Position numbers and translations under genes: made by a program. From Dyella subtropica (GTDB taxonomy: Bacteria > Pseudomonadota > Gammaproteobacteria > Xanthomonadales > Rhodanobacteraceae), in contig NZ_JAPDPD010000028.1 in the NCBI RefSeq assembly GCF_026283965.1, positions 1 through 56,598 of the forward strand: DNA of 56,598 nt. The letters are read 5' to 3'. This document shows positions 37,715-44,701 of the stretch, piece by piece. Numbering within the stretch: the stretch's first letter is position 1; every line of letters starts with the position of its first letter. The notes under the pieces are model-generated. The model saw nothing but the letters and a program-made list of their open reading frames with translations, was not told where the DNA came from and ran no database searches.

Positions 37715-37801
37715 GCCCGGATGGCGAAATTGGTAGACGCAAGGGACTTAAAATCCCTCAGCCGCAAGGCTATGCGGGTTCGATTCCCGCTCCGGGCACC
37801 A
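37715..37801 (+). tRNA. leuZ: tRNA-Leu(TAA)
   Basis: 87 nt with acceptor GCCCGGA / TCCGGGC, anticodon TAA at 37749-37751, long variable arm (cagccgcaaggcta) as in class II tRNAs, and encoded CCA. Its 3' end marks the left edge of an integrated island; a decayed second copy of the 3' half lies at 43742-43800. Confidence 0.98.
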
Positions 37802-37869
37802 TTAAAATCAACAACTTACGATACTGGCCCGGTGTGCCAAAGGCCGCTGTGTAAAATTCGGTGTAAAAA

Positions 37870-38750
37870 TCAGCGCCGTTTTCCGGGCTTACCGGGCACC
37901 GTCACGACCGGCAGCTCTTTGTCGTAGTCGTCGATCATCCGCTCCGATTTGTGTCCGCTGGCATGCTGCTTGTCGTGGCGCGTGCCCGGCGTATCGGTGA
38001 TGTCCTTGCGCTTGTTGTCGTGGGTTCCGAAGCGTTGCCCCTCGGTGATCACGCCGGCCTCGATAGCCAGCTTTACCATTGCCTGCCACCGACTCTGGAA
38101 CGTCCCAGGCTTCACCTGCGCGCCTTCCTGGGTGACCAGCACAATGCGATCCTTTGCATGGAGCTGCTGGGGGCATGCCCCGACGCTTCAAGATCAGCCG
38201 GCGCCGCTCGATTGCTGCATCCCACGCGGCACGGAGGCGCGGCGTCCAGGCGACGATATTGTCGCGACTGCCTTTGCGGCGGTTCGTGCGCAAGCCCTCG
38301 GGCAGCCCGGCATCTTCGGTGAGTGTGGTGACCTCAATGCTGCGGAGGCGGCAGAGGTACATCAGCTCCGCGCTCATCCAGAGATAGGGCGCAAGGCTGC
38401 CCTTGCGTTGCGACGTATAAGTGGCGCGCTCCTTCGCGAAGGTGATCAGGGCATCCCATGCGTCATTTTCTGGGAGGCGCTGGCGTTCCGCTCCTTCATC
38501 TGTTTGAGGCCCTTTACCGGGTTACGAGGCATCTTCCCGTAGCGCACGCCCCACGAGTAAATCAGGCGCACGTAGCGCATAAAGTGGTTTGCTTTGGTGG
38601 GCGTGCCTTCGTCCTTGGCGATGCGCGACACGAGCGCCCGATAGAGGGGGGGGCGAGCTTTGCCGCCGGCAGTGTGCCGAGCGGGCCAAGGCGCGTTTTC
38701 TGCTTTGAGGCGACATTCTGGTACTTGATATAGCCGTCCTGGGTGACCTT
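37870..38750 (-). pseudogene. Frameshifted tyrosine-recombinase (phage integrase) relic 1
   Basis: Three consecutive frames read as one integrase. The part at about 38480-38700 is the core-binding domain (RALVSRIAKDEGTPTKANHF, YSWGVRYGKMPRNPVKGL). The part at about 38160-38480 is the first half of the catalytic domain with the arginine box (MYLCRLRSIEVTTLTE). The part at 37870-38142 is the end, with the histidine box FGTHDNKRKDI, HASGHKSERMI and the nucleophile Tyr in DDYDKE. Breaks lie near 38480 and 38160. The N-terminus is unclear. It lies 68 bases from tRNA-Leu, pointing at it. The coding order and adjacency identify it as the island's own integrase. Confidence 0.85.
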
Positions 38751-39423
38751 TGCCAGCTGCGAAAACTCCAACCGAACCAGTAACGCGCAATGCAGCACGA
38801 ACAGCATCAGAGCCATTTTGGAGCAGGTGGCCAACGTCGGCCAGCAAGTTCTAAGCGTCGAAGGCTGCTCGTTCAAATCGCTGGGTTCATATGTTCCAGA
38901 TGTGAGTCGCCCCTACATTGCTTTCACTGGTCCCCTCGCGGTCAATAAGGACAACTTCTACGAGCGCGCCAACATCTACGAAGATGTTTTTGAGCGACCC
39001 GCATTCCTCGGTCAGGGGAACATGACCTGGGTCCAAGTTTCGAAAGCCTCGAACACGACCCTGGCAAATGCCACGGACACAGCCATACCTTTCGACACGG
39101 TCGATGGTGTGCTCACTTGGTTCGGAGACTTCCTTGGCAGCGGCGTGGTCATTCCGGAAAATGGGACCTACGCTTTCTCGGCGCATCAAACTTTTACTAG
39201 CCCTGCGGCCGGACACAAGCGGCTCAAGGTACAGATTAACGGTGTGACTGTGGCCAGCGGATCGGCTGAAAGCTGCGACGATAGTGTGACGGCGTCAGGC
39301 ATTCAGCAGCTCAAGCAGGGCGACGTCATCGGCGCGTCAATACGGCAAGAGACCGGCGCATCTCTCACGCTGGCTGGTTCAGCTGTTGCTACGTCCTACC
39401 TGATGGCTAAGCGAATTGCCTGA
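38743..39423 (+). CDS. Phage tail-fibre-like C-terminal fragment (C1q/jelly-roll type), probably 5'-truncated
   Basis: An open frame of 226 residues. The first ~30 residues overlap the integrase relic and look random, so the true coding part probably starts internally and the gene is a fragment. The rest (about 60-226) has a beta-rich pattern: FERPAFLGQGNMTWVQVSKA, DTVDGVLTWFGD, VIPENGTYAFSAHQTFTSPA, RLKVQINGVTVASGS, LKQGDVIGASIRQETGASL. This resembles the C1q/TNF-like receptor-binding heads at the ends of phage tail fibres. No other tail genes are present. The identification rests on fold pattern, not on a named family; function probably lost. Confidence 0.45.
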   Translation: MTFASCENSNRTSNAQCSTNSIRAILEQVANVGQQVLSVEGCSFKSLGSYVPDVSRPYIAFTGPLAVNKDNFYERANIYEDVFERPAFLGQGNMTWVQVSKASNTTLANATDTAIPFDTVDGVLTWFGDFLGSGVVIPENGTYAFSAHQTFTSPAAGHKRLKVQINGVTVASGSAESCDDSVTASGIQQLKQGDVIGASIRQETGASLTLAGSAVATSYLMAKRIA

Positions 39424-40602
39424 CGCCGTGTTTGCGCTGGAGGCTTTCGCTCCACGGAGCAACATCCTGCCTAAGGCAATGCCCGGATTCTCGATGTAGC
39501 GCTCTATGCCCCATGCGAGGCCATAGGCTCCCGCGATGACAATCACAAACATCAGGCCGGCTCGCGCGGGGCCGTTCATGCTTGCTACTCCGGGAAGCGG
39601 GAAGATATAGCTGCCGGCCAGGGCAATGAAGAAGCCGTGAAAGAGGTACACAGAGTAGGATGCTCGGGACATATAGGAGACGACCCGCGTCTCGCTGACG
39701 GTGTCAATCCATTTCCTTGCCCTTGCGCCTTCGCTGGTGGTGATATGGAGCCATATCAGGACTAGGGCGAACATGACCCACGTTTCATGGCCATAGATCC
39801 AGACCTGGGAAAGAGATAGAGCTAGGCAAACAGACCATGTCGCGGCGCGATCGAGTAGCGAAAGCACCTTGCCTTGCATGCGAGCTATCAGCATGCCGAT
39901 CAGAAAGAATTGGATCTTGAGCAGCAGCAACGATGGCTCGACAAATAGTCCGTGGCCACCGCGCATGCCGTGAAGCGTGTCGGCGTATTTGGCAAAAGGC
40001 AGGCATATCGCGCACAAGGCTATAGCTACCTTCAAGGGCCCAAGACGTCGCATTGCCAGAAGAATGAATGGGAAGGCCAGGTAGAACTGCATCTCCAGGC
40101 CCAGACTCCAGTCGGGCAGGAACGTTGAGAAAGCGTAGTCCGGTAGAAGCCCAAAGAGGAACGTGACATGGAGTGCGAGATTCGTGGCGGTGTAATGCAC
40201 GAACGCCGGGTCATAGATCTGTTCGCCACCCCATGCAGGGTTCTGGTGCCTGAGCATGGTGTAGCCGCCAAGAAACGCCCCTGACAGGAGCACGGCGACA
40301 GCGAGCGATAGGTAGTACGCCGGCGCGATACGGAAGTATCGGCGCACATAGAACCGTAGCCACGTCGATGGCTTGGACATCGGCTCGACGACCTCGCGCT
40401 CATCGGCGTGCACCACCATCAGATAGCCCGAGATGACCATGAAAAGGTCGACGGCTAGCTTGGCGCTTGGCAGCGGAATGCCGTACCAACCGGCCCAGAT
40501 CATGGAGTGCGCCGATACGACCCAAAACGCGGCCAGCGCACGAAATCCGTTGATGAACCTGAATCGATGCACGCTGGCAATGTCCCTTTCCCGATTCCGC
40601 AT
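39379..40602 (-). CDS. Acyltransferase-3 family membrane O-acyltransferase
   Basis: A 407-residue OafA/YrhL-like protein with about ten membrane segments that transfers acyl groups, usually acetyl, to surface glycans. The start RFRFINGFRALAAFWVVSAH is the family signature, with R21 and the essential H32. Further pieces are KLAVDLFMVISGYLMV (about 48-63), RYFRIAPAYY (about 88-97) and a C-terminal ARASYSVYLFHGFF. The frame is intact. Temperate phages often carry such genes to alter host O-antigen; the neighbouring tail fragment and integrases suggest that here. It overlaps the tail fragment tail-to-tail by 45 bases. Substrate unknown. Confidence 0.85.
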   Translation of the reverse strand: MRNRERDIASVHRFRFINGFRALAAFWVVSAHSMIWAGWYGIPLPSAKLAVDLFMVISGYLMVVHADEREVVEPMSKPSTWLRFYVRRYFRIAPAYYLSLAVAVLLSGAFLGGYTMLRHQNPAWGGEQIYDPAFVHYTATNLALHVTFLFGLLPDYAFSTFLPDWSLGLEMQFYLAFPFILLAMRRLGPLKVAIALCAICLPFAKYADTLHGMRGGHGLFVEPSLLLLKIQFFLIGMLIARMQGKVLSLLDRAATWSVCLALSLSQVWIYGHETWVMFALVLIWLHITTSEGARARKWIDTVSETRVVSYMSRASYSVYLFHGFFIALAGSYIFPLPGVASMNGPARAGLMFVIVIAGAYGLAWGIERYIENPGIALGRMLLRGAKASSANTASGNSLSHQVGRSNS

Positions 40603-40739
40603 AGTACCAGCGGTGAGTTGAGGACCTCGTAGCTCACGCCGTGAGACTCTGCCGGCTTAGGCTCGCCACCATGGGCACGCAGGTCGTCATCGAATGGGAG
40701 CGGCTGAGCCTTCATGGCGCGCCGCTGGATCACTATCTT

Positions 40740-41196
40740 GCCAGGCTTGTTGAGCCGCATGTGACGCGCGGTTTCCGGTCTGCAATTCGCTACTTCGTAG
40801 CGGGCACCATGGCGCTGCCTGACATAGTGCTCCGTCATGGTCACCGTGGTGCGGCCAAGCTGCTGCTGTGCCTGCCGGATGTCTCCGGCCGAATCGGCCT
40901 GGTGCCGGCCTTGGCGCGCAGATCCCGGAACTGGAAGGCCTTGGGCTCGATCCCTACCGACTCCCGCGCGCAGTAGAAAGCGCCCTGCAGCATGCTGTAC
41001 GTCAGCGATTGCCCCCATCCCCGCCGATCACCTGGCGCGTAGCCTGGACCTTGTAGGAAGCTTTGCACGCTGCGATCCGGGCCAGCAGGTCCGCGGGCTG
41101 CCCACTTACCTGAATGCGACGTTTAGTTTTGGTCTTTCCCTGGGCGACGTGCAGGAAGCTGTCACGTATATCGCGCTCGTCCATCTTCAGTTGCCT
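40740..41196 (-). pseudogene. Frameshifted tyrosine-recombinase relic 2
   Basis: Three reading frames in order along the minus strand give parts of one integrase C-terminal domain. About 41184-41005: MDERDIRDSFLHVAQGKTKT and IQVSGQPADLLARIAA. About 41005-40895: LTYSMLQGAFYCARESVGIE and FQFRDLRAKAGT. About 40895-40780: SAGDIRQAQQQLGRTTVTM and TEHYVRQR with the nucleophile Tyr. The sequence type differs from relic 1, so it came from a second element. Core-binding and arm domains are missing. Confidence 0.8.
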
Positions 41197-41301
41197 CGCA
41201 CCTTGGCCTGGCCTCCACGTCGGCGTAGATAGGCTTTGACGTGCTTCGCCTAGGTCGCGTTGGCGTGAAAACTCGGGGGGGCGCGACTGTTCAGGCCACT
41301 C

Positions 41302-41712
41302 TTAGCTGGCGGACTGCGCCGCTATCGTGCTGCGTATGGCCTCGGGCCAAGGGGCTGCCTTCCAGCGTCGAAGATCGACGCACACCAGCTCAACATCGCC
41401 CTCGACCAACAGCACTTGCTCGCACCAAGCCTCTTGGCGGAACCGTAAGGTGGTTGGGTCCGATTCATTCACTTGAGTTCGAATCACGAGTTGTGCATCC
41501 AAGCCCGCTGGGCGGCAATAACGTAGTTGCACCGCACGCACGGCAAAGACCAAACCCATTTGCTCTTTGACTACTTGTTGCGAAAAGCCCCGGTGGCGAA
41601 GCCAGTCGGCACGGGCCTGGTCGAAGTACCTCAGATAGCTACCGTGATAGACCACTCCCCCGGCATCGGTATCGGCGTAGCACACGCGGATAAGGGTGTT
41701 GCCATCATCCAT
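41302..41712 (-). CDS. YbgC/FadM-type acyl-CoA thioesterase
   Basis: A 136-residue single hot-dog domain. It begins MDDGNTLIRVCYADTDAGGV; the motif YADTDAGGVVYHGSYLRYFD with the catalytic Asp (D15) is that of 4-hydroxybenzoyl-CoA/YbgC thioesterases. The second half (VFAVRAVQLRYCRPAGLDAQ, ELVCVDLRRWKAAPWP) fits the fold. The Rieske oxygenase gene lies 26 bases upstream on the same strand, so the two probably share a transcript. This copy is separate from any tol-pal operon. Substrate unknown; intact frame. Confidence 0.82.
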   Translation of the reverse strand: MDDGNTLIRVCYADTDAGGVVYHGSYLRYFDQARADWLRHRGFSQQVVKEQMGLVFAVRAVQLRYCRPAGLDAQLVIRTQVNESDPTTLRFRQEAWCEQVLLVEGDVELVCVDLRRWKAAPWPEAIRSTIAAQSAS

Positions 41713-41726
41713 ATGCCTCTCCCAAT

Positions 41727-41742
41727 GTCAGAGCATCCCTAG
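41727..41742. repeat. Half copy of palindromic repeat family 3
   Basis: On the minus strand this reads ctagggatgctctgac, a 16-base exact match to 11635-11650. It contains the TAG stop codon of the Rieske oxygenase gene (41739-41741). Confidence 0.7.
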
Positions 41743-42971
41743 CACGAATCGAAGTTGCGAACGCTTTCTCGGCTCTTTATTTCAGTTGCAGGAAAGGCTC
41801 TGCTGCTCTTCGGGATCGGCTCATCTTCACGCATAGTGAGTACCTTGTTTAACTGTGCATGGTAGTGAATGAGTGCGGGCTCATGGCGCCCAAACGTCAG
41901 GTGCGACTGTGCTCCGGATGACAAGCCTCGCTGGATCCCTTCAGCCAAGGGAAAGTCCTCGCCATCCACGGTGCGCAACAGCAGCTCCATGTTCCGATCC
42001 CAGTGACCTCGCGCCTTGGGATTGTCGGCTAGCGAAGGGGAGTAGATGGAAGCCTCAGCACGACACATGGCCGGGTTTCCGCTGGGGTCCGGGAATACCC
42101 GCCAGACTTCCAGATGATCACGCTGCCAAATCAACAAGCTGTTAGGAAACAGCACATAGATGACAACCGAGTGATCTAACAAATTCCAGGTGGCCTCCGG
42201 CTGCCCACGCAATGCATGAATGGTCTTTCGAGGGTAGACGATCATGCAATGTTCGCCGAACGCTTCAAACACACCCAGCCCGGGAATAAACAGAGAGGCG
42301 ATGGTGTCGCCATGCAGAAAGGGAAAGTGCGTGTTTTCCAAGAAAGTCTCGACGACTATCTTCCAATTCATTTGCCTGCAAAGGCGGCGGGTTTCGTAGT
42401 GGAATAGGCTGCCTAGCGCATAGGCGTCGATTTCACTTTCCAGCCCTTGCAGGTCGACAGGCTGCACGACATCGGCATAAGGGTGGACCCAGATCAATCC
42501 GTTTGCTTCGGTGACGGGAACCCGCGCCAGTCTTCGGTCGGAAGGACTTAGACCCGGGAACGCTCCGCGCGGCGAGAGCTGCCGCGGTAGGCCTTCCACA
42601 TCATAGGACCACGCATGGTAGGGACAGACAAAGCTTTTCGCCCCACGGCCACATTCTTGTACCAAGGGTGCGCCCCGGTGGCGGCAGACATTCAGAAAGG
42701 CATTGATTCGACCGGAGGGTGTACGAACCAGCAGCAGCGACGTGCCGCTCAGGTCATCCACCACGTAGTCGCCCGGCGCTTGAAGCCGGCAAGTTAGCCC
42801 CACAAGAAGGCCACGTCGGCGGAATAGATGCTCATTCTCCAGGGACTGGTGCGCACTGGAAAAGTAAGCCTGCACGGGGTTGAGTCCCACGGACGCGCTC
42901 AGATCGGTGGTCCCAGCGTCGATATGCGCAAAGATTCGCTTGATGAGACTCACCTGGCGACTATGCAACAT
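41739..42971 (-). CDS. Rieske non-heme iron oxygenase, alpha subunit
   Basis: A 410-residue ring-hydroxylating-type oxygenase. The Rieske [2Fe-2S] ligands are C96 and H98 (NVCRHRGAPLV) and C116 and H119 (FVCPYHAWSY). The catalytic domain has NWKIVVETFLENTHFPFLH with iron ligands H215 and H220, and the conserved late segment GEDFPLAEGIQRGLSSG. All key residues are present and the frame is open, so the enzyme looks functional. These enzymes need an electron-donating reductase or ferredoxin, and none is encoded in the window. It forms a likely two-gene unit with the thioesterase. Substrate unknown: aromatic acids or quaternary amines are typical for the family. Confidence 0.87.
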   Translation of the reverse strand: MLHSRQVSLIKRIFAHIDAGTTDLSASVGLNPVQAYFSSAHQSLENEHLFRRRGLLVGLTCRLQAPGDYVVDDLSGTSLLLVRTPSGRINAFLNVCRHRGAPLVQECGRGAKSFVCPYHAWSYDVEGLPRQLSPRGAFPGLSPSDRRLARVPVTEANGLIWVHPYADVVQPVDLQGLESEIDAYALGSLFHYETRRLCRQMNWKIVVETFLENTHFPFLHGDTIASLFIPGLGVFEAFGEHCMIVYPRKTIHALRGQPEATWNLLDHSVVIYVLFPNSLLIWQRDHLEVWRVFPDPSGNPAMCRAEASIYSPSLADNPKARGHWDRNMELLLRTVDGEDFPLAEGIQRGLSSGAQSHLTFGRHEPALIHYHAQLNKVLTMREDEPIPKSSRAFPATEIKSRESVRNFDSC

Positions 42972-43660
42972 CCTCCCTCTCCCTATGTTTGCTCATGTAG
43001 GGAACCTCGAAAGCTGAGGTGTCCCCTCGTTTTGAGTCGTCATTCCGGCGCAGGCCGGAGGCGCTTCACAACGGCGAGGCTGGTCATCCAGTTTCAATAA
43101 GCCGTGCGAAGCACACAAAAACTGTTTTGAGTGCGTCGCACGGCACTTCTGCTAGGCAGTCTTATGGAGACGCCGTGGCTTCACGCGCATTGAATCGTGG
43201 CGACTACATCTGAACGATGTATTGCGGATAGCGTTCGAAGTCGTGGCCGTTCCAGCGCGAACACTGGTGGCAACTGGCGTACTCCGATGAGGACGAGCAC
43301 GGGCATCACCCATGAGGCGATGCAAGCAAGCCGAAATCCTTCGCGAGTCCTCATATCAAGTTCGCCATCCGTACTTTCCTGTCTCGGGCAAGCCGATCTC
43401 TACCATCCGACCGGGCAAGCACGAGCAAAGAGCCTACGCCCGGATATTCATTGCCATCTGTGATGCATCTCTCATCAGAGGCGGCGCCTGGTGAAGGGGG
43501 CTCCGCGCTGACGTCGCCCCCGTTTCCGTAGACATTAAAACTGGAGTTCGGCGGTTTCGGGGGCCATCGTCGGACCTCCACCGCAATAAGCGAGGGCGAG
43601 TCCATGGGATTACGCCGGGGTGACGAAGTAGGGGGGGATCGCGAGCACCCACCCCTCTCC

Positions 43661-43704
43661 TCAATCCTCTCCCCTGTGCACAAATCGGCGAACAGGAGAG
43701 AGGA
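43661..43704. repeat. Palindromic intergenic repeat, copy 2 (ctctccccc type)
   Basis: Matches 105-148 base for base except for a few changes in the arms (tcaatcctctcccctgtgca onward); arms ctctcccctgt and acaggagagag. Confidence 0.6.
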
Positions 43705-43741
43705 AGCAGGGGCGTCGCCGGGAGTTTCTCAATCGCCTGAT

Positions 43742-43800
43742 AGGACTAAAATCCCCGTAGCTACAAGACTAGGCCGATTCGCTCCGGGCTTCGGGCACTA
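43742..43800 (+). pseudogene. Decayed tRNA-Leu 3' half (candidate distal attachment site)
   Basis: Aligns with the intact tRNA-Leu from the anticodon stem to the 3' end: aggact-aaaatcccc against the anticodon arm, tagctacaagacta against the variable arm cagccgcaaggcta (10 of 14 identical, all four differences transitions), then gattcgctccgggc and cgggcacta against the T-arm and acceptor. It lost about seven bases in the T-arm and has a small duplication near the end. Same strand as the intact tRNA. Confidence 0.7.
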
Positions 43801-44047
43801 CACCGTATTCCCGTGTTGACCGGACGTCATGAATGCCAGCTTGTGACGACATGGCGTAGGTTTCAGCTGACAGACCCGCGGGTAAGGATCAAAGATACTG
43901 GGTTTCCGGATAATCCAGCTGGCCGATGTGCGCCGGTCGGGGAAGGGGAGAAAGCGCTATCCGTTACAAACGTATTCGATGTATGAGTGCTTGCATTGGT
44001 CATGCATGCAGCCTAATTTCAGATGCCACACCCAAGGAGGCGGCGAA

Positions 44048-44701
44048 GTGATCAAACTGGTTTTGGTTGACGATCACGAGCTCGTGCGTACGGGTTTTCG
44101 GATGATTCTGCAGCAGCAGCCCGATATCCATATCTGCGGTGAAGCAGGTACGGCCGAGGAGGGGTTGCGCCTGATACGCACCCATGAGCCGCAGATCGCT
44201 CTGGTCGATGTGCATATGCCTGGCATGAGCGGCATCGAGCTGACCGAGCGTGTGGTGCGCGCCAAGATGGCGACACACATCATCATCATAACGGTGGTCG
44301 ATGATGCGAGATTTCCTAAGCGCCTGCTGGATGCCGGTGCCTTTGGTTACCTCACCAAGGGCTGCACGGCGGAGGAACTGCTCATTGCGGTGAGGCAGGT
44401 GGCGGGTGGTCATCGCTATCTCGCTCCTGCGGTGGCGCAGCAGCTTGCGCTGGCGACGCTGGATGGAGATGGCTCGCCGTTCGATGCGCTGTCCAGCCGC
44501 GAACTGGAGGTGGCCATGATGCTGGTACGTGGCAAGGCGCTTACAGCGATCGGTGAGCAGCTCAATCTCAGCCCCAAGACCGTGTCGACCTATAAGCAGC
44601 GTCTGATGGAGAAGTTGCAGGTGGATCATGTCGTGAGCCTCGCCCACTTGATGACTATCCACGGCTTGCTGGATACGCATAACAATCAAGTTGGCGGCTG
44701 A
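44048..44701 (+). CDS. UvrY/GacA-type response regulator
   Basis: A 217-residue NarL/FixJ-family regulator. Receiver domain at 1-120 with acidic pocket D8-D9 (VDDHELVRTGF), phospho-acceptor D54 (ALVDVHMPGMSG) and K104-type lysine in GYLTKG. LuxR HTH at about 147-210 (LSSRELEVAMMLVRGKALTA, NLSPKTVSTYKQRLMEKL). Start at GTG 44048, set by a strong AAGGAGG site 7 bases upstream. The sequence resembles UvrY/GacA, which controls Csr small RNAs with sensor BarA/GacS. In E. coli uvrY directly precedes uvrC; here it lies after the tRNA cluster, beyond the island. Confidence 0.88.
   Translation: MIKLVLVDDHELVRTGFRMILQQQPDIHICGEAGTAEEGLRLIRTHEPQIALVDVHMPGMSGIELTERVVRAKMATHIIIITVVDDARFPKRLLDAGAFGYLTKGCTAEELLIAVRQVAGGHRYLAPAVAQQLALATLDGDGSPFDALSSRELEVAMMLVRGKALTAIGEQLNLSPKTVSTYKQRLMEKLQVDHVVSLAHLMTIHGLLDTHNNQVGG

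Follow-up and report, generated by a model that had tools for sequence, protein, structure and literature searches.

Decayed remains of integrative DNA at a tRNA-Leu(TAA) gene in Dyella subtropica

When part of a tRNA gene recurs a few kilobases from the intact gene, does it mark the far end of an element that once entered there? The question arises in a contig of Dyella subtropica (the window, 56,598 nucleotides), in which tRNA-Leu(taa) is the last of a cluster of four tRNA genes found by ARAGORN. A preliminary description, made from the sequence alone, had noted a decayed copy of its 3' half 6 kb away and proposed that an element integrated at the tRNA and then decayed. That proposal held up in its main part: taking the evidence as a whole, the 6 kb stretch is very probably the decayed remains of integrative DNA at tRNA-Leu(TAA). 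The assumption of a single element is probably too simple, because the stretch holds two integrase families. Integration of this kind at tRNA genes is a well-known process, of which the island is a clear example.

A worn tRNA-Leu half at the right end of the island

The island is bounded by the following two features.

37715–37801, + strand: intact tRNA-Leu(TAA), left boundary (ARAGORN)
43743–43800, + strand: worn tRNA-Leu 3' half (tRNA positions 30–87), the right boundary scar (local alignment and shuffles)

Alignment of the tRNA gene with the right copy matched positions 30–87 to 43743–43800 in the same orientation, giving the direct repeat of the tRNA 3' end expected at the far end of a tRNA-targeted element. 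The two copies are identical at 44 of 56 aligned bases (79%), with three gaps, four bases in all, within 58 bases. The differences had been described as mostly transitions, which is weakly true (7 transitions, 5 transversions). The local score of 146 compares with 111 at the runner-up place on either strand of the window, and at the place of the scar the corresponding halves of the adjacent tRNA-Gly and tRNA-Cys reach 68. None of 2000 shuffled controls reached 146: the maximum was 126 in 1000 first-order shuffles of the 6.2 kb island and 125 when the query was shuffled 1000 times (Gumbel P about 3e-5). The recurrence is thus confirmed. An identity of just 79%, with gaps, could raise the suspicion of chance similarity, but the window-wide scores and the shuffles rule this out as the source of the scar and the place agrees with an empty site in a relative (below), so that we consider chance extremely improbable.

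Just to the left of the scar lies a repeat of ~100 bp (43607–43716), presumably of the REP type, with dozens of copies in the same genome and in the relative G004; it was not found in the four other genus relatives (40 candidates scored per genome). The repeat was rejected as the origin of the scar, as no listed own-genome match of 43500–44701 touches 43742–43800 (40 of 156 candidates scored).

The left limit of the scar, tRNA position 30, falls in the anticodon arm. According to PMC8371274, strand exchange by integrases frequently takes place where the anticodon loop ends, and the tRNA is restored; in the account of PMC4383910 a regenerated target and a displaced fragment mark the ends of an island. 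Seven genomes (G049, G050, G134, G055, G109, G140 and G061) have a partial 3' copy on the same contig as a full tRNA-Leu; these partial copies start at tRNA position 24–32 and end at 87. The right copy could instead be the relic of an ordinary tRNA gene duplication without any integration. Copies of tRNA genes do multiply, as the two tRNA-Gly genes of the window's cluster and the two full tRNA-Leu genes of G061 illustrate. Yet a start in the anticodon arm, like that of the displaced halves in the seven genomes, the integrase relics between the two copies, and the single tRNA-Leu standing directly before uvrY in 25 genomes all argue against duplication, which we regard as very unlikely.

Two of the seven genomes deserve separate mention. 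In G061 (L199), the two full tRNA-Leu genes and a partial one are packed into 3.6 kb, an arrangement suggestive of repeated small insertions or duplications. In G109 (L197 1625–7226), the 5.5 kb between tRNA-Leu and the displaced half hold a DNA methylase ORF and a ResIII-type ORF, likely a type III restriction system; no integrase ORF was noticed among the ORFs listed for that stretch.

The island shares with the tRNA islands catalogued by Islander (PMC4383910) a regenerated tRNA on one side, a displaced fragment on the other and a tyrosine integrase at the tRNA. Unlike those islands, it has a dead integrase, a worn fragment (79% identity) and probably two elements.

Empty and refilled sites between tRNA-Leu and uvrY

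To the right of the scar the chromosome continues as follows.

43801–44047, + strand: native flank between tRNA-Leu and uvrY (aligns with the corresponding gaps of G004, G001, G003 and G005)
44048–44701, + strand: UvrY-like response regulator, chromosomal neighbour (protein family searches)

We compared this region with five other genomes of the genus (G001–G005). An uninterrupted junction between tRNA-Leu and the UvrY-like gene, by which the preliminary description proposed to check its reading, was found in four of the five, with gaps of 290 bp in G004, 559 in G001, 1134 in G003 and 1305 bp in G005. The empty site that a tRNA-targeted element implies is therefore present in relatives. In G004, an intact tRNA-Leu occupies the place that the scar has in the window, and the end of this tRNA and the sequence downstream align with the scar and its own downstream sequence; when the 48 bases that follow the scar were compared in a placed test with the first 60 that follow the G004 tRNA, p was 0.001. 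A placed test for a scar before uvrY in the other three gave p 0.023 in G001, 0.89 in G003 and 0.18 in G005. The gaps of these three likewise align with the flank, from 43812–43817 onward.

The scar and the empty sites together support the right limit of the island as one set by the tRNA remnant. This limit is not fixed to the exact base: when the right flank is aligned over its full length, 43801 falls at base 38 of the G004 gap rather than at base 1.

The remaining genus relative, G002, has 61.7 kb between tRNA-Leu and uvrY, filled by a prophage whose tyrosine integrase gene, next to the tRNA, is intact.

We then surveyed the family, searching 147 genomes, including that of the window, for a UvrY-like protein and tRNA-Leu. 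In 79 of them a near full-length tRNA match and a UvrY-like match on one contig were paired by hand. tRNA-Leu lies 87–1309 bp upstream of uvrY on the same strand in 25 of these genomes and 6.2–101 kb upstream in 15, the window included, not all of which are necessarily insertions; in 13 the two genes are divergent at 225–584 bp, and in 26 tRNA-Leu lies elsewhere relative to uvrY.

Twenty-four gaps, 20 of the 25 short ones and four of the long ones, were tested for the tRNA 3' half. It had been pointed out that relatives without the island but with the scar at the same place would speak against the proposal; among the 20 short gaps, 18 held no match to the tRNA 3' half beyond shuffles (p 0.15 or more). 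The gap of G001 was borderline (score 95, p 0.027), its match lying 293 bp before uvrY, near the 290 bp of the G004 gap. The gap of G090 was positive, with a score of 111 that none of 300 shuffles reached; its match lies 420 bp before uvrY and fits an old insertion of its own. Among the long gaps, those of G132, G122 and G100 were negative in this test. In G039, from a sister genus, a score of 125 with the scar end 445 bp before uvrY was reached by 1 of 150 whole-gap shuffles and 0 of 2000 placed-stretch shuffles; a longer query scored best at another place in that gap (129). Six genomes of the genus of G039 and G090 have gaps of 422–442 bp, with which the flanks of both align from close to the tRNA end onward. 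G039 and G090 show parallel worn scars, each at the native distance from uvrY.

A different outcome is seen in G123, where tRNA-Leu(TAA) is split: its first 41 bases (L200 1481–1521) and its 3' half (L201 5744–5798) are separated by 44.7 kb, the latter next to an integrase gene, and ARAGORN finds no tRNA gene in either stretch. The element there seems not to have restored the tRNA.

Two integrase relics within the island

The left and middle parts of the island contain the following features.

37870–38771, − strand: int1, tyrosine integrase relic, N-terminal third lost and frame broken (phrog_14425; one piece phrog_1 integrase)
38771–38827, no strand: probable deletion junction between int1 and the tail-gene end (end of int1 similarity, start of phage similarity)
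38827–39423, + strand: C-terminal end of a phage structural or tail protein (phrog_25122, phrog_13989)
39379–40602, − strand: O-acetyltransferase, intact ORF, 407 aa (Acyl_transf_3, phrog_3333)
40633–40681, + strand: candidate middle tRNA-Leu scar, suggestive only (score 88, p 0.032, placed test)
40790–41246, − strand: int2, second tyrosine integrase relic, four pieces in three frames (relatives at tRNA-Leu(TAA) in G049 and G050)

The first relic, int1, begins about 70 bp from the end of tRNA-Leu, where the preliminary description had placed an integrase relic directly inside the left tRNA copy. A tyrosine integrase thus stands beside the tRNA, as in other tRNA-targeted elements, only as a relic. 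It has no Pfam match. Relatives occur in 8 of the 146 other family genomes, none of the genus, and 7 of their 10 loci have a tRNA gene (Lys, Met, Gln, Asn or Thr). In one of them, G022, tRNA-Thr from position 32 on recurs 39.5 kb away. None of the 10 loci holds tRNA-Leu, which counts against the favoured explanation.

Of phage structural genes the left part has one gene end, 30.5% identical to a gene of Pseudomonas phage MKPT02. This tail-gene end has no relative in viral_contigs (peptide-pattern scan) or in the 146 family genomes, and the int1 end none in viral_contigs by the same scan. The O-acetyltransferase has one phage gene relative (26.9%), with a match at E 1e-70 in 0 of 146 family genomes, and no intact prophage related to the left part was found in viral_contigs and the 146 family genomes. 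The left part is probably a deleted prophage reduced to its ends: integrase, tail-gene end and O-acetyltransferase. The 61 kb prophage of G002 has the same gene order at the same tRNA-Leu site in the same genus, with the integrase on the tRNA side and phage tail genes toward uvrY. It differs in its integrase (34% over 38 residues) and in its repeat, which comprises only the last 16 tRNA bases, and beyond the tRNA and the flank it has no similarity to the island better than E 0.004. A site of the G002 type was rejected for the island, in which these 16 bases do not recur at up to 3 mismatches; in the window they have 2 matches (the tRNA itself and 32877) against 1.87 expected.

The second relic, int2, is an addition to the preliminary description. 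It is without its N-terminal part and an inner stretch, and no relative of the int2 piece was found in phages or plasmids. With both integrases broken, neither excision nor transfer of the island is expected. Among nine loci of int2 relatives, two are at tRNA-Leu(TAA) in the same cluster (G049 and G050), one is at tRNA-Leu(CAA), two are at tRNA-Ser(CGA) and one is near an array of other tRNAs. Three have no tRNA gene; one of these, G134, has a displaced tRNA-Leu half beside the integrase. The elements of G049, G050 and G134 (44–47 kb) share with the island the same tRNA, a repeat from position 30–31 to 87 and a related integrase. Unlike in the island, their repeats and integrase ORFs are intact. 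In G134 the usual layout is reversed: the int2-type integrase adjoins the displaced half, and the full tRNA is 47 kb away.

Two integrases with tRNA targets are what stacked elements would contain. Could one element account for both? A single prophage or island may have carried both integrases, or gained the second with cargo, and be bounded by tRNA-Leu and the scar. There is one clear outer scar and the middle one is weak; moreover, the left limits of displaced copies are alike, 32 for the int1 relative at the tRNA-Thr of G022 and 30–31 for int2 relatives, so the outer scar can be assigned to neither integrase. Against a single element stand the presence of two integrase families, each of which has relatives adjacent to tRNA genes, the orientation of both with the C-terminal end toward the tRNA, and the position of the tail-gene end and O-acetyltransferase between the integrases, where the far end of a prophage would be. 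We regard one element as possible but on the unlikely side.

Insertion probably happened at least twice, leaving two stacked elements. That members of two integrase families lie 3 kb apart at one tRNA, in the same orientation, fits two insertions in succession with int2 first. The locations of int2 relatives also support the two steps: in G049 and G050 they adjoin tRNA-Leu(TAA) directly, and in G134 the relative sits next to a displaced half. The sequence suggests a middle scar between the two elements (40633–40681), and its weakness counts against two steps: p is 0.032 with the island's own tRNA, the tRNA-plus-gap stretches of G049 and G050 as query gave p 0.076, 0.16 and 0.067 (0.067–0.16 overall), and over the whole island the candidate is not above chance.

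The island very probably arose as follows. A tyrosine integrase, recombining in the anticodon arm, inserted an integrative element into tRNA-Leu(TAA). The tRNA 3' half that it brought kept the gene at 37715–37801 whole, while the original 3' half, pushed rightward and out of use, decayed into 43743–43800. In the inferred two-step course, the element with int2 came first, and a prophage with int1 later inserted into the tRNA so restored, moving what remained of the int2 element about 3 kb away. Deletions took nearly all mobile functions, leaving three intact enzyme ORFs.

Intact enzyme ORFs and the record at the tRNA

The O-acetyltransferase is one of these ORFs; the other two lie between int2 and the scar.

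41302–41712, − strand: YbgC/FadM-family thioesterase, intact ORF, 136 aa (4HBT_2, TIGR00051)
41739–42971, − strand: Rieske oxygenase large subunit, intact ORF, 410 aa (Rieske, Ring_hydroxyl_A)

The thioesterase is 41% identical to another copy in its own genome. For these two genes, the nearest named families, whose cut-offs are far from reached, would make quaternary amines and aromatic acids candidate substrates. Among its best 80 loci, the Rieske oxygenase is 76% identical to that of Paraburkholderia phenazinium and 48% to the next, and it reaches at most 36% among the matches listed for 96 other family genomes. No other island ORF matches the P. phenazinium Rieske neighbourhood at E 0.001, nor did any but the Rieske ORF match in the 80 loci kept. 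Against P. phenazinium, dN is 0.18 and dS 2.4; with synonymous sites saturated, these values speak for constraint over the whole path, not since insertion. G+C is 0.56–0.59 in the tail-gene end and the three enzyme genes, 0.61 in int1, 0.63 in int2 and 0.64 in the flanks.

The reading frames of the three enzymes run uninterrupted for 407, 136 and 410 codons, in contrast to the scar, whose 58 bases contain three gaps; from this we infer that the ORFs were kept by selection or arrived later. Being foreign and intact in an island whose remainder is dead, they are candidate retained cargo. A layered record, in which at least two elements came in turn and host selection kept only the O-acetyltransferase, thioesterase and Rieske oxygenase, is a tentative proposal toward which we lean slightly less than against.

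To the first reading of the locus the analysis adds another integrase, a history that likely took two steps, sites in the family that are empty or have been refilled, and the parallel scars of G039 and G090. If relatives predict where to look, a tRNA end that has diverged by about 21% is still recognisable, and turnover at one tRNA hotspot becomes countable across a bacterial family. If the layered record is true, scars at the native distance from uvrY, here and in G039 and G090, would let old and otherwise invisible insertions throughout the family be counted.
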